This document shows positions 28,880 to 46,500 of a stretch of 64,000 nt of DNA, piece after piece. Numbering within the stretch: the stretch's first letter is position 1; each line of letters begins with the position of its first letter. The translations under genes and the position numbers were made by a program. The stretch is taken from assembly GCF_001404515.1 (NCBI RefSeq), contig NZ_CXWE01000003.1, positions 558,001-622,000 of the forward strand, given 5' to 3'. Source of the stretch: Roseibium album (lineage in GTDB: Bacteria > Pseudomonadota > Alphaproteobacteria > Rhizobiales > Stappiaceae). Below the pieces are notes generated by a model. It was not told the origin of the DNA. It was given only the letters and a program-made list of their open reading frames with translations, and searched no databases.

Positions 28880-30592
28880 ATGGCTTACAGGATGCCGCGC
28901 GCCGCGTATGCGGACATGTACGGACCGACAACCGGTGACAGGCTGCGTCTTGCCGATACCGATCTCGTCATCGAAGTCGAAAAGGATTTCACCACCTATG
29001 GCGAGGAAGTGAAATTCGGCGGTGGCAAGGTGATCCGTGACGGTATGGGCCAGTCACAGGCACCGCGCAGCGCCGGCGCTGTCGACACGGTGATCACAAA
29101 CGCGCTGATCGTGGACCACTGGGGTATCGTCAAGGCTGATGTCGGGCTGAAGGATGGCCGCATTGTCGGTATCGGCAAGGCGGGCAACCCGGATGTTCAG
29201 CCGGATGTCGACATCGTCGTCGGGCCCGGGACGGAAGCCATAGCCGGGGAGGGCAAGATCCTGACCGCCGGGGCGCTCGACGTTCACATCCATTTCATCT
29301 GTCCGCAGCAGATCGAAGAAGCCCTGATGTCAGGTGTGACGACCATGCTGGGGGGCGGTACGGGACCAGCGACCGGCACAAACGCCACAACCTGCACGCC
29401 AGGGCCCTGGCATATCACCAGGATGCTGCAATCGGCGGACAGTTTTCCGATGAACCTCGCCTTTGCTGGCAAGGGCAACGCATCCTTGCCCGCGGCACTT
29501 GAAGAACAGATCATGGCCGGTGCCGCCGCCTTGAAGCTGCACGAGGACTGGGGCACGACACCGGCTGCCATCGATACCTGTCTTTCGGTCGCGGACGAAT
29601 ATGACGTCCAGGTGATGATCCACACCGACACGCTGAACGAGTCCGGCTTTGTTGAAAACACCACCGCGGCCTTCAGGAACCGCACGATCCATGCCTTCCA
29701 CACCGAGGGCGCCGGCGGTGGCCACGCTCCGGATATAATCAAGGTCTGCGGCGAGATGAATGTTCTGCCGTCATCGACCAACCCGACCCGGCCCTACACG
29801 GTCAACACGCTTGAAGAACATCTCGACATGCTGATGGTCTGTCACCATCTGGACAGTTCGATCCCTGAAGACGTTGCCTTTGCCGAGAGCCGTATCCGCA
29901 AGGAAACGATCGCGGCCGAGGACATTCTCCACGACATGGGTGCCTTTTCGATCATTGCTTCGGACAGCCAGGCTATGGGCCGTGTCGGAGAGGTGATTAT
30001 CCGAACCCTGCAGACCGCGCACAAAATGAAGGTTCAACGGGGCCGTCTGCCGGAAGAGGCCGGCGAAAACGACAATTTCCGCGTCAGGCGCTACATGGCC
30101 AAGATGACCATCAATCCCGCGATCGCACATGGTCTTGACCAGCATGTCGGATCGGTCGAGATCGGCAAGCTCGCGGACCTGGTGCTCTGGGATCCGAAAT
30201 TCTTCGGCGTCAAGCCTGACATGGTTCTGAAACTGGGTACGATCGCAGCCGCACCCATGGGTGATCCGAACGCATCCATTCCGACACCGCAACCGGTGCA
30301 CTACCGGCCTATGTTCGGCGCTTTCGGCAAGGCAATGACCGAAAGTCGCGTGACATTCGTTTCCCAGGCAGCCTACGACACGGGCGTTGCGGAAAAGGCC
30401 GGTCTGGACAGCCTCGTCCTGCCCGTCAAGAACGTGCGCGGCGGTATCAGCAAGAAGTCCATGGTCCTCAACGATGCGACGCCCGATATCGACGTTCATC
30501 CCGAAACCTACGAAGTCCGGGCCAACGGCGAATTGCTAACCTGTGAACCTGCAGATGTCCTGCCGATGGCACAGCGCTATTTCCTGTTCTGA
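28880..30592 (+). CDS. ureC: Urease subunit alpha
   Basis: A 570-residue catalytic subunit; hydrolyses urea to ammonia and carbamate at a di-nickel site. Key residues are present: [11 protein letters not shown] for the first nickel histidines, Lys219 in LKLHEDWG (carbamylated lysine), [15 protein letters not shown], and the mobile flap Cys321-His322-His323 in MVCHHLDSS. Full length and intact. The ATG follows ACAGGAGCAAAC. A 131-bp gap separates it from the GST gene, which still runs in the same direction. Confidence 0.98.
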
Positions 30593-37939: not shown

Positions 37940-38240
37940 CTTCCGCTCCTCACACCTGCTCGGAATGTCCTGCGCCCGGTCAATCGGACAGCGGAACATG
38001 TCCTTTTGTGACAGGAGTATTGTAGTGCCGAGGTGACAGTCTTGTGAAGCCCGTCAAAGTCATTTCTGATTGAGGTTGTTGAAAGGCTTTTTCTGGCAAA
38101 GGATTTTTCTTAAATCTATGAATCAGTTGCCTGATATCAATTGCACCTGCGTTATGTCGACAGATTTACGTGCTCCACGAAAAAGGGCGCCCGAAGACGC
38201 CCTTTGAATTGCCGGAATTCTTGATTGGCGCGGATACGAA
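37940..38240. other. Intergenic stretch between HNH gene and leuC
   Basis: 301 bp that serves as the upstream region of the HNH gene and the end of the leuC transcript. Apart from the leuC terminator it is AT-richer than its neighbours around 38,090-38,160. No gene or RNA was seen. Confidence 0.5.
38182..38205 (-). terminator. Rho-independent terminator after leuC
   Basis: Arms AAAGGGCG and CGCCCTTT (8 bp) with an 8-nt loop; on the minus strand a T run (TTTTTCG) follows. It lies 36 bp past the leuC stop. Confidence 0.85.
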
Positions 38241-39653
38241 TCAATTCACCGTCCAGTTGCGAATATCAACGAAATGACCGGCGATCGCCGCTGCGGCAGC
38301 CATAGCCGGTGAAACAAGGTGGGTACGGCCCTTATGTCCTTGCCTGCCCTCGAAATTCCGGTTCGAAGTTGAAGCGCAGCGCTCACCAGGCTTAAGCTTG
38401 TCGGCATTCATTGCCAGGCACATGGAGCATCCAGGTTCACGCCAGTCAAATCCGGCTTCCTTGAAGATCACATCAAGGCCTTCTTCCTCAGCCTGTTCCT
38501 TCACGAGACCTGAGCCCGGAACCACCATGGCGTCGACATGCGCCGCCACTTTGTGGTTCCCGATGACAGCCGCGGCCGCACGCAGGTCTTCGATTCGACC
38601 GTTGGTGCACGAACCGATGAATGCACGATCGATCTTGATGTCGGTGATTTTTGTGCCCGGCTCAAGACCCATGTAGTCCAGTGCGCGCTTCTTGGAGTCG
38701 CGTCGGTTTTCATCCTCGATCTGCTCTGGATCCGGCACAACGCCTTCCACTGAAACCACATCTTCCGGAGAGGAGCCCCAGGAAACGATCGGCGGCAGGT
38801 TTGCGGCGTCCAGCTCGACAATCTTGTCGAAATAGGCATCCGCGTCCGAATGCAGCGTATGCCAGTAGGCCATCGCCATATCCCAGGCTTCGCCCTTTGG
38901 AGCCTTCGGACGGCCCTTGACGTATTCAAAGGTGATCTCGTCCGGAGCGATAAGTCCGGCGCGTGCGCCGGCTTCGATCGACATGTTACAGACGGTCATC
39001 CGTCCTTCCATGGACAGCGACCGGATCGCATCACCCGAATATTCGATGACGTAGCCCGTCCCGCCTGCGGTACCGATCTTGCCGATGATTGCCAGAACGA
39101 TGTCCTTTGCGGTGACACCTTCCGGCACATCACCATTGACCTTGACCAGCATGTTCTTGGCTTTTTTCTGGATCAGGGTCTGGGTCGCAAGGACATGCTC
39201 GACCTCGGACGTTCCGATGCCGTGTGCAAGTGATCCGAACGCACCGTGCGTGGACGTGTGGCTGTCGCCGCAGACAATGGTCATTCCAGGCAGCGTAAAG
39301 CCCTGTTCCGGACCGACGATATGAACGACACCCTGGCGCATATCCAGTTCGGAATAGTATTCAACTCCGAATTCGGCTGCGTTCTTGGCAAGAGTATCCA
39401 CCTGCAATGCGGACTCCGGATCGTCGATCCCGTCGCGCCGGTCGGTTGTCGGAACGTTATGGTCGACGACGGCCAGGGTCTTCTGCGGGCTGCGCACCTT
39501 GCGGCCATGCATCCGCAGTCCTTCGAAGGCCTGCGGGCTGGTGACTTCATGCACCAGGTGACGGTCTATGTAGAGCAGGCCGGTTCCGTCCGGCTGCATG
39601 TCGACCACGTGGTCGTCCCAGATCTTGTCGTAAAGCGTGCGAGCCTTCGCCAT
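38241..39653 (-). CDS. leuC: 3-isopropylmalate dehydratase large subunit
   Basis: A 470-residue aconitase-family protein. 4Fe-4S ligands: Cys in [14 protein letters not shown] region and the later pair in [12 protein letters not shown] and [12 protein letters not shown] at 39653 was chosen, with GAGGAGAG before it; it begins the standard [17 protein letters not shown]. It works with LeuD, encoded at the left end of the window. It follows rplS on the same strand, a usual place for leuC in this order, but a terminator lies between. Confidence 0.96.
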
Positions 39654-39855
39654 GGGTCTCTCCTCATTCACGCCGGTTCCAGTTGCGCCTGCGTCCCGGC
39701 ACCTGCTTCCGGCATCGTCTTCCTTCGCTGACAGGTGCAGCAAGGATTGTTGCAAAATTCTGGCTAGTGAATGGCGCAGCCACGCCTCAAGGTCAAGTTC
39801 TGGCGGGTTGAGCTGAATTCAACTGAGATTGATTGCCATGATTTCATACAAAAAA

Positions 39856-39874
39856 GGCGGTCGCAGGGACCGCC
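39856..39874 (-). terminator. Rho-independent terminator after rplS
   Basis: GGCGGTC...GGACCGCC: a 7-8-bp stem with a short loop. On the minus strand six or more T residues follow (TTTTTTG). It lies 26 bp past the rplS stop. Confidence 0.88.
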
Positions 39875-39899
39875 TTTCAATCGTATTCGCCAACTCGGC

Positions 39900-40370
39900 T
39901 TATTCAGCAGCGCTCTCTGCAGCTTCCTGCTGGGCCTTCTTGGCTTCCGCCTTGGCAACCTTGACAGCGGCAGCTTCCGCGCGCGCTTCCTCGTTGAGGC
40001 GCTTGGAGCGAACATTGGTGTTTTCGGTGATCCGGGCGGACTTACCGCGGCGATCACGAAGGTAGTAGAGTTTCGCGCGGCGAACCTTGCCGCGGCGGAC
40101 AACTTCAACACCCTCGAGCATCGGGGAAAAGATCGGGAAGACTCGTTCAACGCCTTCGCCATAGGAGATCTTGCGAACCGTGAAGCTCTCGTTGATGCCG
40201 CCGCCGGAACGGGCAATGCAGACACCTTCATAAGCCTGTGTACGGGTACGGCTACCTTCGGTGACCTTTACGTTAACGCGAACCGTGTCACCTGGTGAAA
40301 ATTCGGGAAGCTTGCGTTGAGCTTCGATCTTCGCCATTTCCTCAGCATTGAGCTGCTCGATTATGTTCAT
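39900..40370 (-). CDS. rplS: Ribosomal protein L19
   Basis: A protein of 156 residues. The L19 core (about 1-118) has [31 protein letters not shown] and [21 protein letters not shown] 38-residue Ala/Lys/Glu tail, not part of the fold, is usual for rhizobial L19. The leader upstream has two hairpins. It is the last gene of the ffh-rpsP-rimM-trmD-rplS group, but the LuxR gene and a candidate sRNA separate it from trmD, so it must have its own promoter. Confidence 0.97.
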
Positions 40371-40409
40371 GGCATATTTCCCTTTTCAATTACAAAGCGG
40401 TCAGAGCGT

Positions 40410-40429
40410 TTTCCGGTAAAGGCCGGAAA
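40410..40429 (-). promoter_or_regulatory. Hairpin 2 in the rplS leader
   Basis: TTTCCGG and CCGGAAA (7 bp) with a 6-nt loop, 40-59 nt before the rplS start codon. It could fold in the mRNA leader and take part in L19 autoregulation; no known motif was recognised. Confidence 0.4.
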
Positions 40430-40509
40430 CGTGTTCACCAGCTTTGGGCCATGTTGCATATCAACCGGGATTAACGGGATTGAACCGAAACCGGTTCCGC
40501 CCTGCAGGT

Positions 40510-40529
40510 CGTTCAACAGAAATTGAACG
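40510..40529 (-). promoter_or_regulatory. Hairpin 1 in the rplS leader or operator
   Basis: CGTTCAA and TTGAACG (7 bp, perfect) separated by 6 bp. It lies just downstream of the proposed rplS promoter, so it may be a leader hairpin or a protein-binding site. Confidence 0.4.
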
Positions 40530-40554
40530 CGCCATCACCCAGCTTTCGCGGGCG

Positions 40555-40581
40555 TATATAGCAAAATCCGGAGTTTGTCAT
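40555..40581 (-). promoter_or_regulatory. Possible rplS promoter
   Basis: On the minus strand ATGACA and TATATA, 15 bp apart, are near the sigma-70-type consensus but the spacer is short. Transcription would start near 40,548, giving a leader of about 180 nt. Confidence 0.35.
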
Positions 40582-40707
40582 GTTGTTTTTGTTCGTCTGA
40601 ATATACCGGCTTGCAAGCTTCGCATCGAATTTCGGAGAATAAATTCAAGAGCTTTACGCCGACGTGGCTATGAGAGCGCCATTTATACAGACAAATACGA
40701 GGCAGCC

Positions 40708-40822
40708 AATAACAACAAAAGCAGCGGCACAAGTGCCGCTGCTGATGCCTAGCATTGCCTAAAGTAATTCTTTCCCCATTTCACCAGTTCTTCACAACTG
40801 ACAAAACAATTTTGGTTGCAAT
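40708..40822 (-). ncRNA. Candidate small RNA, about 110 nt
   Basis: A stand-alone transcription unit on the minus strand with no coding frame over six codons. It begins behind a near-consensus promoter and ends in a strong intrinsic terminator (11-bp stem, T-rich tail). Predicted start is about 40,822 and end about 40,708. It is divergent from the LuxR-type gene. I could not match it to a known RNA family such as the alpha-r groups. Confidence 0.55.
40720..40743 (-). terminator. Intrinsic terminator of the candidate sRNA
   Basis: AGCAGCGGCAC and GTGCCGCTGCT: an 11-bp perfect stem (in effect 10 bp with a tetraloop), followed on the minus strand by TTTTGTTGTT. On the plus strand there is no T run, so it does not serve a plus-strand gene. 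No annotated minus-strand gene ends here. Confidence 0.8.
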
Positions 40823-40828
40823 AACATT

Positions 40829-40857
40829 CTTATAGCACATTTGAAAAAAATTGTCAC
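40829..40857 (-). promoter_or_regulatory. Promoter of the candidate sRNA
   Basis: On the minus strand GTGACA (5 of 6 to TTGACA), a 17-bp spacer and TATAAG (5 of 6 to TATAAT). TGC directly before the -10 adds an extended -10 element. It is the best sigma-70-type promoter seen in the window. Confidence 0.6.
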
Positions 40858-40936
40858 GATGGCATTTACGATATCTATAAAATAACGTTAATTGATATCG
40901 GTTAAATCTCAAGTTGCAAGCAACAGGATTCGTCAC

Positions 40937-42088
40937 TTGGTAAACGATCACTCCAGTTTACTGCACAAAATCTACTCGGCTGCTTTGCTCGACGAGGGGC
41001 TTACTGGTGTGCTTTCGGATCTTGCAACCACTTATCCGGATCTGCCAATTTCTTATCAGGCCCAATGCGTCTACCGGAACAAGGTTTACGACTGCGCCAT
41101 GTTCAATCACGGCGAAGACGCCGAGTTCCGGCTAAACCATGCCGTCTCGCCAAATCCGTTTCCACCAATTGCGTTGCAATGCGATCCTTCGGATGTGGTT
41201 TTCACGGGGGATTTCATTTCCACCGCCGATGTCGAGAACACCGATTTTTACGATGAATTCCTGAAGGATCACGGCGAAATCAATCGTGCCTTTGGCGTGA
41301 TACTGCATCGCGAAGGCGAGGATTCCGCGTTCGTGGCCGCCAACCTGCCCAGAAGAATGGGCCGGAAAGAAGAGGAACATGTCCGAAGTCTTTTCGGCTT
41401 TCTCAGGCCGCATCTGCAAAATGCCTTCGGGCTGCTCTTGGAACTTGCAAAACGGGACGCTGAACCCGCCAACCCGCAATTCTGGCTGGATCAGATTCCG
41501 ACGGCCGCTCTGGTTGTTGAACCCGACGGCAGAATTCTGCATTTCAACCGACAGGCCGACAAAGTGCTGACAACCGGCAAAGCGTTGTTTATCGACCGGA
41601 CTGTCCGTCTGGGCGCGCGCAGGCCTCAAATACAATCCGCTCTTCAGGCGGCTCTCGCAAAAGCGTCAGGATTATCCATGCCAGTCGGGCCAATACCCCT
41701 GATGGACAACGGGCACCCAGGTCCCTTCTTTTTCGTCTTGCCTATCCAGCACAAAGACCAGCTTCACCCGGGGCTTGCACCTTTTCTGGCGCCAAGGCTT
41801 CCTCTGCTCGTCACGGTGTTCGATCCGGACGATGTCCCCAAATCATCTGAAAAAATACTCTCGACTGCATTCGGTTTGACGGATCGGGAAGCGCTGCTGG
41901 TTCAACAGCTGATCCTTGGTGTCTCGCTGAAACAGGCAGCGGAAAACTTGCAGATTTCGTATAATACGGCAAGAAATCATCTGGCGAGCGCGACGTCGAA
42001 AACCGGTGCCCATTCACAGGCCGATATCGTCCGGCGCGGCACGCAGCTCCTTGCAAAACTGGGAGACCAGGCTTCGGACAGGACCTAG
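40937..42088 (+). CDS. LuxR-type HTH transcriptional regulator
   Basis: A protein of 383 residues from TTG at 40937, with CAGGA 8 nt before; a TTG at 40892 gives 15 more residues but no ribosome site. The C-terminal ~65 residues form a LuxR/Fix[25 protein letters not shown] and [21 protein letters not shown]. The middle (about residues 170-235) looks PAS-like: [27 protein letters not shown]. No autoinducer-binding domain is recognised. It lies opposite to and between trmD and rplS, overlapping the trmD stop by 4 bp, and faces away from the candidate sRNA. Confidence 0.85.
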
Positions 42089-42795
42089 TCCACGTCGTCT
42101 TCGTCCGCCATATAGGATTCCCAGAGATCCGGACGCCGTTCACGGGTCAGGCGCTCGGCCTCTGCCATCCGCCATTCGTGAATTTTCTGGTGGTTACCGG
42201 ATGTCAGAACATCCGGAATCGGCATGTTCTCGAAGGCGGCCGGACGGGTGTAATGCGGATGTTCCAGCAATCCGGTCTCGAAACTCTCCGTATCCGCACT
42301 TTCGATATTGCCCATGACGCCCGGGATAAGCCTGATGATGGCGTCCAGCATCGTGATCGCCGCGACCTCGCCACCTGACAGGATATAGTCGCCGACGGAA
42401 ACCTCCTCAAGTTCCCGGGAATCGATGACCCGCTGGTCAACACCCTCAAACCTGCCGCAGACAATAATGGCGCCCGGACCGGACGCAAGCTCATGTGCCC
42501 GTTCCTGCGTGAACGGGCGACCGCGAGGGCTCATCAAAAGCCGAGGACGCGGATCACCGGCAGGCGCCGCTGCATCGACTGCCATTGCGAGTATGTCTGC
42601 CCGCAACACCATCCCGGCGCCGCCACCGGCAGGCGTGTCGTCAACGCTTCGATGCTTGTCCGTGGCAAAATCCCGGATCTGGACCGTCTCGAGAGCCCAA
42701 AGCGCCCTGGCGAGCGCCCGCCCCGACAAGCTGTGGCCAAGCGGTCCTGGAAACATGTCCGGATAGAGCGAGAGGATCGTGGCTTTAAAGGGCAT
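42085..42795 (-). CDS. trmD: tRNA (guanine-N1)-methyltransferase
   Basis: A 236-residue SPOUT methyltransferase, making m1G37 in tRNAs. Motifs: [44 protein letters not shown] and [16 protein letters not shown], which shape the trefoil knot. ATG at 42795 begins the usual [12 protein letters not shown]; a frame extension upstream has no family support. It is between rimM and rplS as usual, but the opposite-strand VanZ and LuxR genes interrupt the block on either side. Confidence 0.96.
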
Positions 42796-42918
42796 CAAGT
42801 GACCATTAACCCTGAAATTCGAAAGTTCCGCCTGTCCACCGGACAATAACGGCACGGAAAGATCTGATTAAGGCCCACCGGTCATGCTGGCAAGAGCGTT
42901 TCAATCAGGTCCATTGCC

Positions 42919-43446
42919 GTGTTTCAGTTTCCAGTTTTGCGTTTCAAGCTTCCCGCCGTGATTCAGAGGCGGGTTGAACAGCACTATCTCGACATTTCGC
43001 TGAGCCGGATAGTACCGCTGGTTTCGCTGATGACATTCGGCATTCTGGTTGGCATGGTTTTCAAAACAGGCGTTGGTCATCCTTATGACAAGGTGATCCA
43101 TATTGGTTTCTTCGCCCTGCTGACACTCTCCATTCACGCGCTGTTCTGTTGCCGTCTGCGAATTTCAGCGGTCGTTGCGTTCACGATGGGAATTGCGGGT
43201 GAAGTCGTGCAAGGCTTTCTGCCGCATCATGAAATGTCGATAGCTGACACGGTCGCAAACGGCATCGGGGTAGCCTTGATCGTCGCGCTGATCGCATTGT
43301 TGCGGTCCGAGGTCAGTCAGGCGGTTGATGACCATGACACCGAGGAAAACCTGAACCTCAACCGCATGGGCCTGGAGCCCGTCCCAGTGCGTTATTTTTC
43401 CGGAGAATCCTCGTCAGACGATCCTGGCGCGTCTTCGGAAAAGTAG
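42919..43446 (+). CDS. VanZ-like family membrane protein
   Basis: A protein of 175 residues with four predicted membrane segments. KVIHIGFFALLTLSIHALF and GIAGEVVQGFLPHHEMSIAD, with the typical G-E-x-x-Q and DxxAN (DTVANGIG) marks, fit the VanZ-like family; function unknown outside teicoplanin resistance. The start is GTG at 42919, as the only in-frame codon before the first membrane helix. The last 55 bp overlap the 3' end of rimM on the other strand, so both C-terminal tails are encoded by the same DNA. Confidence 0.8.
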   Translation: MFQFPVLRFKLPAVIQRRVEQHYLDISLSRIVPLVSLMTFGILVGMVFKTGVGHPYDKVIHIGFFALLTLSIHALFCCRLRISAVVAFTMGIAGEVVQGFLPHHEMSIADTVANGIGVALIVALIALLRSEVSQAVDDHDTEENLNLNRMGLEPVPVRYFSGESSSDDPGASSEK

Positions 43447-43949
43447 TCGTCAGGCAAGTCCGCTTTCACAAACCCTTCCGCCATAGCGACCTCAGGCACG
43501 AATTCCTTCGTGAACGGGATGTAGAATGTCCTGCCTCGCTTCGGCCTGATCTCCAGAAGATCGCCGGCGCCGAAATCCTGAACCGCAACGATTTTCCCCA
43601 GTTGTGCACCGCTCTGGTCGATGACGCTCAGGCCGTTGAGGTCGGAATAGTAGAATTCGTCTTCATCAGGATCGGGAAACCGGTCACGGTCGACATAGAG
43701 TTCGACGCCGTTCAGTTCTTCCGCCTGGTTCCGGTCCTTCACCTGCTTGAACTTGGTGATCACGACCGTCTTCTGCACTCGCGCTTTTTCAACCTCGAAG
43801 GACCTTGATCCGTCCTTGGAGATCAGCACGCCGTAGTCGGTGAAAGAGAGCGGGTCGTCACCATAAGGCTTGACCCGCACTTCCCCGCGGATGCCGTGAG
43901 CGGCACCGATCTTGGCCATCAGGACTTTCTGACTGTCTGTTGAACTCAT
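43392..43949 (-). CDS. rimM: 16S rRNA processing protein RimM
   Basis: A protein of 185 residues. N-terminal domain: AKIGAAHGIRGEVRVKPYGDDP. PRC-barrel domain: FYYSDLNGLSVIDQSGAQLGKIV and LLEIRPKRGRTFYIPF. It helps mature the 3' major domain of the 30S subunit and binds S19. It follows rpsP by 62 bp. The acidic tail after about residue 168 is encoded by the bases overlapping the VanZ gene on the other strand. Confidence 0.96.
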   Translation of the reverse strand: MSSTDSQKVLMAKIGAAHGIRGEVRVKPYGDDPLSFTDYGVLISKDGSRSFEVEKARVQKTVVITKFKQVKDRNQAEELNGVELYVDRDRFPDPDEDEFYYSDLNGLSVIDQSGAQLGKIVAVQDFGAGDLLEIRPKRGRTFYIPFTKEFVPEVAMAEGFVKADLPDDYFSEDAPGSSDEDSPEK

Positions 43950-44011
43950 GTCAGCATGGGCCTTTGATGTATACCGGCGCCGTCTCTTTCAAATATTGGA
44001 TCGGCAGATGC

Positions 44012-44430: not shown

Positions 44431-44754
44431 TCAGTTGCCGGCTTCAGCGGCAATGGCTTCATGGTGCCGGATCACTTCGCGAACGATGAAGTTCAGGAAT
44501 TTCTCGGCAAAGTCAGGATCGAGATTGGCATCGGCAGCCAGCCGCCGCAGTCTTTCGATCTGAATCTTCTCCCGCGCCGGATCGGCCGGCGGCAGGTCGT
44601 TGGTTGCTTTCAGAACACCCACCTGCTGGGTGCACCTGAAACGTTCGGCGAGCATATGGATGAGCGCGGCATCGATATTGTCGATGGAAGATCTCAGAGC
44701 TTTCAGCTCCTGCAGAGCCTCGCTCTCGCCAAGCCGGGTCTCCGCTTCACTCAT
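44431..44754 (-). CDS. Chorismate mutase, AroQ class
   Basis: A protein of 107 residues, all helical. LKALRSSIDNIDAALIHMLAERFRCTQQVGVLK includes the Arg and Lys residues that bind chorismate. It rearranges chorismate to prephenate for Phe and Tyr synthesis. No signal peptide, so it is the cytoplasmic type. The start overlaps the ffh stop (ATGA). A gene of this kind between ffh and rpsP is common in rhizobia. Confidence 0.93.
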   Translation of the reverse strand: MSEAETRLGESEALQELKALRSSIDNIDAALIHMLAERFRCTQQVGVLKATNDLPPADPAREKIQIERLRRLAADANLDPDFAEKFLNFIVREVIRHHEAIAAEAGN

Positions 44755-46301
44755 CGCTTCTTACCCTTCCCCATGCCCGGCAGGCCGGGAAGTTTCGGCC
44801 CACCGAGACCTGGAAGACCCGGCATGCCCGGAGGCAATCCGACGCCACCCAATCCACCCGGCATCCCGCCGGGAAGGCCTTTCGGCAGTTCCATTCCATC
44901 GGGAAGCTGGCCCGACTTGGCCATTTCTTCCAGTTGTTTCGGATCGACATCCGGCATCCCGCCACCGCCAAGACCGCCCATGAGCTTGCCCAGCATGCCT
45001 TTGCCCTTGCCCATCTTCTTCATCATGTCCGCCATCTGGCGATGCATCTTGAGAAGCTTGTTGACTTCGGCAACCTGAACGCCGGACCCGGCTGCGATAC
45101 GCTTCTTGCGGCTCGCTTTCAGGAGGTCAGGTTTGGATCTTTCGGACGGGGTCATCGACTGAATGATCGCGATCTGGCGCTTGAACATCTTGTCGTCGAT
45201 GTTTGATGCCTCGATCTGCTTCTTCATCTTGCCGACACCCGGCAGCATGCCCATCATCCCGGACATGCCTCCAAGCTTTTCCATCTGTTTCAGCTGCTCG
45301 GCGAGATCTTCCAGGTCGAAATGACCCTTCTGCATCCTCTTCGCCATCTTCGCGGCTTTTTCCGCATCGATGGCCTCGGCAGCCTTTTCGACAAGCGAAA
45401 CGATATCGCCCATTCCGAGGATACGGTCGGCGATCCGCTTCGGATGGAAGTCTTCCAGCGCATCGGATTTTTCACCGGTACCGATCAGTTTGACGGGTTT
45501 GCCGGTGACCGCCTGCATGGAAAGCGCGGCACCGCCGCGTCCGTCACCGTCCATTCGAGTCAGTGCGATACCGGTGATGCCAACACGTTCGTCAAAGCTG
45601 CTGGCCAGATTGACCGCATCCTGTCCGGTCAATGAGTCGGCAACCAGCAGAATTTCATGAGGCTGGGCGGCGGCTTTCACATCCGCCATTTCCATCATCA
45701 ACGGCTCGTCGATATGTATACGGCCCGCCGTATCCAGCATGACGACGTCGTAGCCGCCGAGCTTTGCCGCAGACATCGCCCGGTTGGCAATTTCAACCGG
45801 GCCCTGGCCTTCGACAATCGGCAACGTGTCGATCTCGTTCTGCTCACCCAGAATTTTCAACTGTTCCTGAGCGGCCGGACGACGGGTATCAAGCGATGCC
45901 ATCAGAACCTTGCGCCTGTCGCGCTGGGTCATCCTGCGGGCAATTTTTGCAGTCGTTGTCGTTTTACCGGAACCCTGAAGGCCGACCATCATGATCGCCA
46001 CGGGTGCAGGCGCATTCAGGTCGATTGGCTGAGCTTCGGCACCAAGCATCTCCACCAACTGGTCATGAACGATCTTCACGACCATCTGGCCCGGCGTAAC
46101 TGACTTGACGACTTCGGCACCGACAGCACGGCTGCGAACCTTGTCGGTGAAGGAGCGTACGATCGGCAGGGCAACGTCGGCTTCGATAAGCGCGCGCCGG
46201 ATTTCACGCATCGCTTCGTTGACGTCGTTTTCCGACAGCGCACCACGGCCGGTGAGCTTGTCGAATACTCCGCTTAGTCGATCGGACAGGCTTTCAAACA
46301 T
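44751..46301 (-). CDS. ffh: Signal recognition particle protein Ffh
   Basis: A protein of 516 residues. N and G domains: GLQGSGKTTTTAKIARR, DTRRPAAQEQL, DTAGR and TRMDGDGRGGAAL. The M domain is rich in Met and Gly and ends with Gly/Pro/Leu runs in about the last 50 residues (LPGGMPGGLGGVGL-like). It binds signal sequences with 4.5S RNA, which is not in this window. ATG at 46301 with AAGGA before it; a TTG directly upstream is less likely. A 7-bp hairpin (46,325-46,342) lies just before the start. Confidence 0.97.
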   Translation of the reverse strand: MFESLSDRLSGVFDKLTGRGALSENDVNEAMREIRRALIEADVALPIVRSFTDKVRSRAVGAEVVKSVTPGQMVVKIVHDQLVEMLGAEAQPIDLNAPAPVAIMMVGLQGSGKTTTTAKIARRMTQRDRRKVLMASLDTRRPAAQEQLKILGEQNEIDTLPIVEGQGPVEIANRAMSAAKLGGYDVVMLDTAGRIHIDEPLMMEMADVKAAAQPHEILLVADSLTGQDAVNLASSFDERVGITGIALTRMDGDGRGGAALSMQAVTGKPVKLIGTGEKSDALEDFHPKRIADRILGMGDIVSLVEKAAEAIDAEKAAKMAKRMQKGHFDLEDLAEQLKQMEKLGGMSGMMGMLPGVGKMKKQIEASNIDDKMFKRQIAIIQSMTPSERSKPDLLKASRKKRIAAGSGVQVAEVNKLLKMHRQMADMMKKMGKGKGMLGKLMGGLGGGGMPDVDPKQLEEMAKSGQLPDGMELPKGLPGGMPGGLGGVGLPPGMPGLPGLGGPKLPGLPGMGKGKKR

Positions 46302-46500
46302 CAAAGGGTCCTTAAGTCATCTTCTTCGGGAAATCTCCCGAACCATATGGGCAACCGGCGCCTGGATCCAACAGGTTTGCTTGACGCAAAGCAGTTTCGC
46401 ACCCGAGGGCGCGTCGCGCTGTCGGGTGTGAACCTCCGGGATCTCTTTACACCTTTTCGGGTCCCGGTCGGTGGTACAGGTTGTCAGTCACTCATATGGA

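Follow-up and report, generated by a model that had tools for sequence, protein, structure and literature searches.

The 64,000-nucleotide stretch of Roseibium album DNA analysed here (the window) carries a predicted small RNA (sRNA) gene between a LuxR-type regulator gene on the plus strand and rplS on the minus strand, divergent from the regulator gene (Table 1). Roseibium is a genus common in marine and coral samples. The rplS gene starts about 340 nt past the sRNA terminator on the same strand. On the other side of the locus, trmD and luxR are convergent, and their ends overlap at 42085-42088. A mechanical ORF list places the luxR start at 40892, but in-frame stops occur between this position and the TTG at 40937 in G067, G023, G013 and G068, so that the TTG is the most likely start and 40892 an unlikely one.

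Table 1. Features at the predicted sRNA locus, in positions of the window.
Feature	Position	Strand	Description
rplS (ribosomal protein L19)	39900..40370	-	Neighbour outside the sRNA unit; ATG at 40370
Independent rplS promoter	40553..40581	-	ATGACA-17-TATACG, downstream of the sRNA terminator
sRNA gene, predicted RNA of about 112 nt	40709..40822	-	From the seven-genome alignment, covariance model R1 and sharp conservation limits
Intrinsic terminator of the sRNA	40710..40743	-	10-bp GC-rich stem with CTTG loop (40743-40720), U-rich tail TTTGTTGTTA
Conserved stretch GGGAAAGAATTACTTTAGGCAATGCTAGGC	40747..40776	-	Partly unpaired; candidate base-pairing region, from the alignment
5' hairpin (P2) of the RNA	40778..40807	-	Sequence variable, pairing partly kept
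sRNA promoter	40829..40857	-	-35 GTGACA (40857-40852), 17-nt spacer, extended -10 TGC-TATAAG (hexamer 40834-40829)
Region matching the 16-bp box of other lineages	40858..40883	.	No recognisable box in the core clade
LuxR-type regulator gene with probable PAS domain	40937..42088	+	383 aa, likely TTG start

The promoter given in the preliminary description, with GTGACA and TGC-TATAAG separated by 17 nt on the minus strand, could be read directly in the sequence at 40857-40829. Its rank as the best sigma-70 promoter of the window could not be confirmed: in the promoter scan, which covered 38000-44000 of the window, two other sites reach 10/12, the value that the sRNA promoter also attains by our own count. 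The scan itself missed the sRNA promoter because it demands T at the last -10 position. The terminator stem begins about 85 nt after the -10 hexamer. This terminator was recovered by the scan, and its stem, described earlier as a perfect one of 11 bp, is realistically 10 bp, since an eleventh pair would leave a 2-nt loop. It is the longest stem among the five terminator-like sites in 38000-44000, a number that does not exceed that in shuffled sequences (mean 6.5). With the start at 40822, assumed to lie 7 nt after the -10 hexamer, the promoter and terminator positions predict an RNA of about 112 nt, in agreement with the length of about 110 nt first proposed. Two entries of the ORF list reach into the sRNA stretch, 40444-40752 on the plus strand and 40535-40732 on the minus strand. 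Both lie mostly within unconserved spacer, which makes a protein gene unlikely here and accords with the initial statement that none fits. We also rejected a repeated element, as a 181-base query matched once in its own genome (E ≤ 0.01).

We searched 45 genomes of the genus with the regulator protein and obtained matches at E ≤ 1e-10 in 27 of them, 13 showing at least 52% identity. G022 was counted as the fourteenth luxR genome, its gene being cut by the contig end (61% identity over 51 residues), and the remaining 13 genomes were treated as having no luxR orthologue because their matches showed only 22-32% identity. All 14 genomes with an orthologue have luxR adjoining rplS (14/45). The trmD gene lies on the other side of luxR in 12 of the 14; none was found within 1.5 kb in G003, and it is out of view in G022. 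Under a strict terminator rule (9 or more stem pairs, including 6 or more G-C, and at least 4 T in 8), only G018 among the 31 luxR-less genomes had a terminator on the sRNA strand; these genomes were scanned over 520 nt before rplS (473 in one), which often includes the trmD end. The opposite-strand control gave 3/14 for the luxR genomes and 2/31 for the luxR-less ones, and mononucleotide shuffles of each luxR region yielded a terminator in 0-2 of 200. Two luxR genomes escaped the strict rule, G033 and G028, and in the latter a looser rule detects a 7-bp stem. This looser rule, run on the luxR genomes only, found a terminator in 13/14. The regulator and the sRNA had been suggested to form one accessory unit, and their pairing is largely supported by the strict terminator counts (12/14 luxR genomes versus 1/31 others) but not by G018 and G033, the latter having luxR with neither a terminator nor the upstream box described below.

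The luxR-less genome G018 (best match 29% identity) is sister to G024 (98/89). Its trmD-rplS gap (L081) keeps a 16-bp box identical to that of G024, a -10-like hexamer and an almost unchanged terminator, but its RNA body and downstream spacer have diverged. By these features, G018 looks like a remnant after luxR loss. Since it keeps box and terminator without luxR, the regulator-sRNA pair is not inseparable. The patchy distribution on the tree, together with the G018 remnant, suggests an old gain followed by repeated loss, with separate gains as the alternative.

In a rough tree built from the rplS region, seven of the 14 luxR genomes group together (support 86/95) and are called the core clade here. 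The window's genome shares with the six other Roseibium genomes of this clade a conserved block with sharp limits that comprises promoter, body and terminator. In four divergent core genomes (G000, G032, G068 and G023, with G030, G013 and G067 omitted as near relatives), the identity in 20-nt steps was 0.82-0.88 across the promoter (0.85 overall), 0.47-0.64 in the 5' part of the body (0.47-0.89 over the body as a whole) and 0.87-0.91 between the start of the conserved unpaired stretch and the end of the terminator. Over the next 120 nt it fell to 0.14-0.37. Over all seven core genomes, the values were 0.86 for the promoter, 0.86 for the terminator and 0.35 for the spacer. GTGACA followed by TATA was found at the orthologous place in all seven core genomes and in no more than these among the 14 luxR genomes (7/14). 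The conservation expected among relatives that keep luxR was thus observed for the terminator (12/14) but for the GTGACA promoter in only half of them; six of the others have a palindrome-like box and a TAnnnn hexamer in its stead. An own promoter and terminator, no conserved frame and conservation as a unit characterise the seven core genomes and, in part, the other luxR genomes. This comparative conservation is the strong evidence for the predicted sRNA unit.

A covariance model (R1) was built from the seven core genomes and searched across the 45 genomes of the genus, under stricter filter settings at which some weak matches are lost. The seven building members score 102-137 bits, by construction. 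The R1 search recovered three further copies at the orthologous place (36-42 bits), namely in G006 (42.1 bits), G028 (38.7 bits) and G022 (36.1 bits), and the best match away from the locus reached 29.9 bits. The match at the right place in G019 scored 26.4 bits, below this best off-place match, and weak matches (E ≤ 1) occurred in 24/45 genomes in all. No R1 match was found at the orthologous place in G033, G003 and G024, although G003 and G024 carry a strong terminator at that position. When run on 199 genomes of the order, the model recovered the copy in the window itself and, besides it, a single weak match (27.5 bits). The comparison of genomes shows a small predicted transcription unit that is independent and is linked to the regulator, and it is very probable from these alignments that the stretch is an sRNA gene of a genus-restricted family, paired with the LuxR-type regulator.

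The segments TTACTTTAGG and GCGGCACT.GTGCCGC are invariant in the seven core genomes, and TTTAGG within the conserved stretch is also present in G022 and G019. In P2, 3 of 12 pairs are changed on both sides, and 88% of the cells are paired in the core genomes. The whole-structure covariation score was 0.217 versus a shuffled mean of 0.170, a value reached in 1/500 shuffles. Four pairs overall are changed on both sides, a count that 52/500 shuffles attain and that is also obtained when the partner is slid by +3. Covariation over the whole predicted sRNA structure is modest. The fold energy of the window copy (G000) is unimpressive (z of -1.5 and -1.2) and that of the G030 copy gives a z of -1.9; the other five core copies have low fold energies (z of -3.2 to -4.6). 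Four non-core copies were also folded, with z values of -4.4 for G006, -2.6 for G022, -1.6 for G019 and -1.2 for G028.

The Rfam search that had been proposed assigned the sRNA locus to no family: the scan of the window with Rfam 15 gave no match there at the gathering level, and neither did a search of eight loci, including the window's own, at the same level. At E ≤ 10 on 361 bases of the sRNA locus, the best match reached 19.2 bits versus a cut-off of 100, and nothing credible was obtained. The window has Rfam matches elsewhere. One is to 5_ureB_sRNA (RF02514) at 29033-29321 on the minus strand (99.8 bits versus a cut-off of 40), which may reflect merely conserved coding sequence. Another is to the ffh sRNA family RF01793 at 46392-46443 on the minus strand (55.9 bits), close upstream of the same-strand ORF 44751-46304, which we tentatively read as ffh. 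In viral contigs, a 41-letter pattern had no match. The titles and abstract openings returned by literature searches for Labrenzia small RNA and Roseibium sRNA name no such RNA, and the main text of a study on Rhizobiales sRNA families (PMC3927594) mentions no Labrenzia, LuxR, rplS or trmD. We found no description of this well-delimited sRNA family in the literature and Rfam searches made.

We also looked for complements of the conserved stretch. The 12-base complement CCTAAAGTAATT occurs in 6/7 core genomes, each time in the sRNA gene only, and is missing in G032. A 10-base complement has 20 sites in five genomes, 5 of which are the sRNA gene itself. It recurs orthologously about 190 nt before a reductase gene in three genomes (L125, L129 and L144, near position 1500) and before a second gene in two genomes; the names FabI-like for the reductase and caspase-like for the second gene come from reading the translations. 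Ordinary conservation may explain these recurring sites, and in each of the five genomes the reversed control outnumbers the 10-mer, so we claim no target.

Upstream of the sRNA, most luxR lineages outside the core clade show a palindromic box. In G022 it is a perfect 16-bp palindrome, TAGTGCAATTGCACTA, which is matched at 15 of 16 positions in G006, 14 in G028, 13 in G019 and G003, and 12 in G024 and G018. A TAnnnn hexamer that begins exactly 22 nt after a box of at least 12/16 was found in 6/14 luxR genomes and in G018. The hexamers are TATGAG (G022), TAGTCT (G006), TAACAT (G028), TAAATA (G019), TAAACT (G003), TAAAAT (G024) and TAATAT (G018); they match TATAAT at only 3-5 of 6 positions, and G006 and G019 have other positions that score equally well or better. 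If transcription starts 7 nt past the hexamer, the centre of the box falls near -42.5. LuxR homologues are described as usually, but not always, binding a 20-bp palindrome centred at -42.5 (PMC4471428), so the box, at 16 bp versus the described 20 bp, would occupy the position where a LuxR-type activator binds. The constant 22-nt spacing may be partly or wholly due to shared descent.

Neither the seven core genomes nor G033 have the box, with best matches of 9-10/16 at chance level; the core clade has a near-consensus -35 instead. The shuffle counts for the box (0-19 of 2000) are optimistic because the consensus was drawn from the same sequences, and the weaker matches rest on their position, since nine luxR-less genomes reach 11/16 somewhere in up to 1500 nt. 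A search of the 45 genomes with TAGTGCAWWTGCAC gave eight rows in five genomes: four rows, representing three sites (G028, G006 and G022), at the sRNA locus, and four rows, also three sites (G028, G017 and G023), elsewhere. The reversed control of TAGTGCAWWTGCAC gave 3, and we therefore claim no regulon for the box.

Thirteen regulator orthologues align over 383 columns. The Pfam family GerE (LuxR-type HTH) matched the C-terminal part of 11/13 at E ≤ 0.01, the window protein (6.3e-7) being above the cut-off, and PAS_4 matched 3/13 at E ≤ 0.01, with 20.3 bits versus a cut-off of 23.1 for the window protein. The regulator probably carries a PAS domain before the HTH. No autoinducer (AHL)-binding domain is among the Pfam families matched by the 13 orthologues at E ≤ 0.01, unlike in an AHL-type LuxR quorum-sensing receptor. 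NCBIfam gave no regulator match above its cut-offs, and a sequence-profile search of the PDB with the regulators (E ≤ 0.01) returned HTH domains only and no VqmA. The AlphaFold model of the regulator is poor (pLDDT 59, pTM 0.36), being better over residues 191-270 (the PAS part) and 311-370 (the HTH). A Foldseek search with this model placed VqmA chains at ranks 1, 3 and 5-10 (E of 6e-6 to 2e-4) and the light-activated EL222 at ranks 2 and 4. With identities of 14-18% and TM-scores of 0.19-0.36, these similarities give a hint of the class and domain order but do not prove kinship. The regulator search in 297 genomes of the order (E ≤ 1e-25) gave three matches, in the window's genome, in G019 of the same genus and in G210 of another family (26% identity).

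The rplS gene appears to be transcribed independently. We searched the 45 genus genomes for ATGACA followed by TAT 14-19 nt later within 420 nt of rplS, and found this arrangement 162-227 nt before the gene in 42 of them, that is, in 14/14 luxR genomes and in 28/31 luxR-less ones (G027, G031 and G062 being the misses). With rplS having its own promoter so widely, luxR does not interrupt a tight operon, which corrects the earlier view that it breaks a normally compact trmD-rplS order. Within the rplS leader of about 170 nt (40371-40585 of the window, minus strand), the blocks GCAACATGGCCCAAAG and CGCTCTGACCGCTTTGTAATTGAAAAGGGAAA are strongly kept across the aligned luxR genomes, and may possibly represent an L19 regulatory leader. 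Beyond luxR, a VanZ-like gene (Pfam match below the cut-off) lies at 42919-43446 on the plus strand, opposite to and between rimM and trmD; a relative is found beside trmD in 36/45 genus genomes, which is every one whose trmD was in view.

The same independent promoter bears on whether the sRNA stretch might be an attenuator or a long leader of rplS, with a start at 40822 and a terminator controlling read-through into the gene. The shared strand and the position of rplS beyond the terminator would suit such an arrangement, but a separate rplS promoter intervenes in 14/14 luxR genomes and is also present in 28/31 others, 30 of the 31 luxR-less genomes have no such terminator, and the spacer after the terminator is unconserved; we regard this reading as very unlikely. 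We give similarly little credence to the hairpin merely terminating run-on transcription from trmD, or antisense transcription through luxR, beside a promoter-like sequence that arose by chance. Although trmD reads towards the hairpin and is convergent with luxR, the promoter and body are conserved with the hairpin in seven genomes, and G018 is the only one with such a terminator among the 24 luxR-less genomes whose trmD was in view. We find it barely credible that a small peptide is encoded here, for instance by a frame that opens at the ATG within GGCAATGC and reads through the terminator. From this ATG a frame of about 33 codons, counted by eye, is open in the window, but the ATG is missing in G022, the peptide frames end by eye at differing places between genomes, and conservation ceases at the terminator; this small ORF was rejected.

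The account that we favour, and consider fairly probable as a whole, is an sRNA of about 112 nt with its own terminator and a divergent luxR, in which the regulator activates the sRNA through the box and the RNA pairs with targets. The regulator would use its N-terminal and PAS parts to sense light, the redox state or a small molecule, and would bind the palindrome centred near -42.5, thereby activating the sRNA in the box-bearing lineages. Transcription would end at the sRNA's own terminator, before the independent rplS promoter, and the RNA with its U-rich 3' tail would base-pair with target mRNAs via the conserved UUACUUUAGG, probably with Hfq. In the window's clade, with a good -35 and no recognisable palindrome, the RNA is probably more constitutive, or the regulator site has changed. 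It is also conceivable, if rather unlikely, that the sRNA is real and the regulator is not its activator: the two might share ancestry only, the box might serve luxR autoregulation or another factor, or the regulator might repress the RNA. The retention of box, -10-like hexamer and terminator in G018 after luxR loss fits this reading, as does the good -35 without a box in the window's clade. Against it stand the fixed distance of 22 nt between box and hexamer and the finding that the terminator occurs almost only where luxR does.

Three known systems offer comparisons. VqmA is described as a LuxR-type regulator that senses DPO and induces the Hfq-associated sRNA VqmR (PMC6451090), and vqmA and vqmR are reported to co-occur nearly always in Vibrio (PMC10426928). 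The Roseibium locus likewise has a LuxR-type HTH regulator with a probable PAS domain adjoining a predicted, intrinsically terminated sRNA; the regulator and sRNA genes are mostly found together, as given for Vibrio in PMC10426928; and VqmA chains are the top structural matches of the low-confidence regulator model. The differences are considerable. The Roseibium pair is divergent, whereas the Vibrio order given in PMC10426928 (vqmR promoter, vqmR, vqmA upstream region) would imply a tandem arrangement. The Roseibium regulator has an extra N-terminal part of about 180 residues, and the box of the other lineages is TAGTGCAATTGCACTA-like, as opposed to the VqmA operator described as GG-N6-CC (PMC8284805). 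Furthermore, the Roseibium regulators have no sequence match to VqmA in the PDB (E ≤ 0.01) and the RNA matches no Rfam family. As the box differs, the gene order appears different and sequence matches are lacking for both RNA and regulator, the pair cannot be classed as VqmA-VqmR.

The PAS-LuxR activators of Streptomyces (PimM type) share the PAS-LuxR domain order and a palindrome of 16 bp that lies in the -35 region and is centred on AWWT, given as CTVGGGAWWTCCCBAG (PMC9774167). Their half-site differs from that of the Roseibium box, they control antibiotic genes and not an sRNA, and the N-terminal part of the Roseibium regulator is larger. In the VtlR-AbcR1 system of Agrobacterium, an alphaproteobacterial regulator is described as directly activating a neighbouring sRNA (PMC7486931), as the Roseibium regulator would do; VtlR, however, belongs to the LysR family, and the Roseibium RNA matches no Rfam family.

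The sRNA family has a natural regulator partner and natural variants, G018 having apparently lost luxR and the window's clade the box. It can therefore be tested directly whether a PAS-LuxR receptor works through a single sRNA outside Vibrio. On present evidence, the Roseibium pair would by analogy work most like VqmA-VqmR. We tentatively suggest that it may be an independently arisen alphaproteobacterial counterpart of that system, in which a signal-sensing PAS-LuxR regulator mainly switches one fast-evolving divergent sRNA, with box and terminator kept and body and targets rewired between species.
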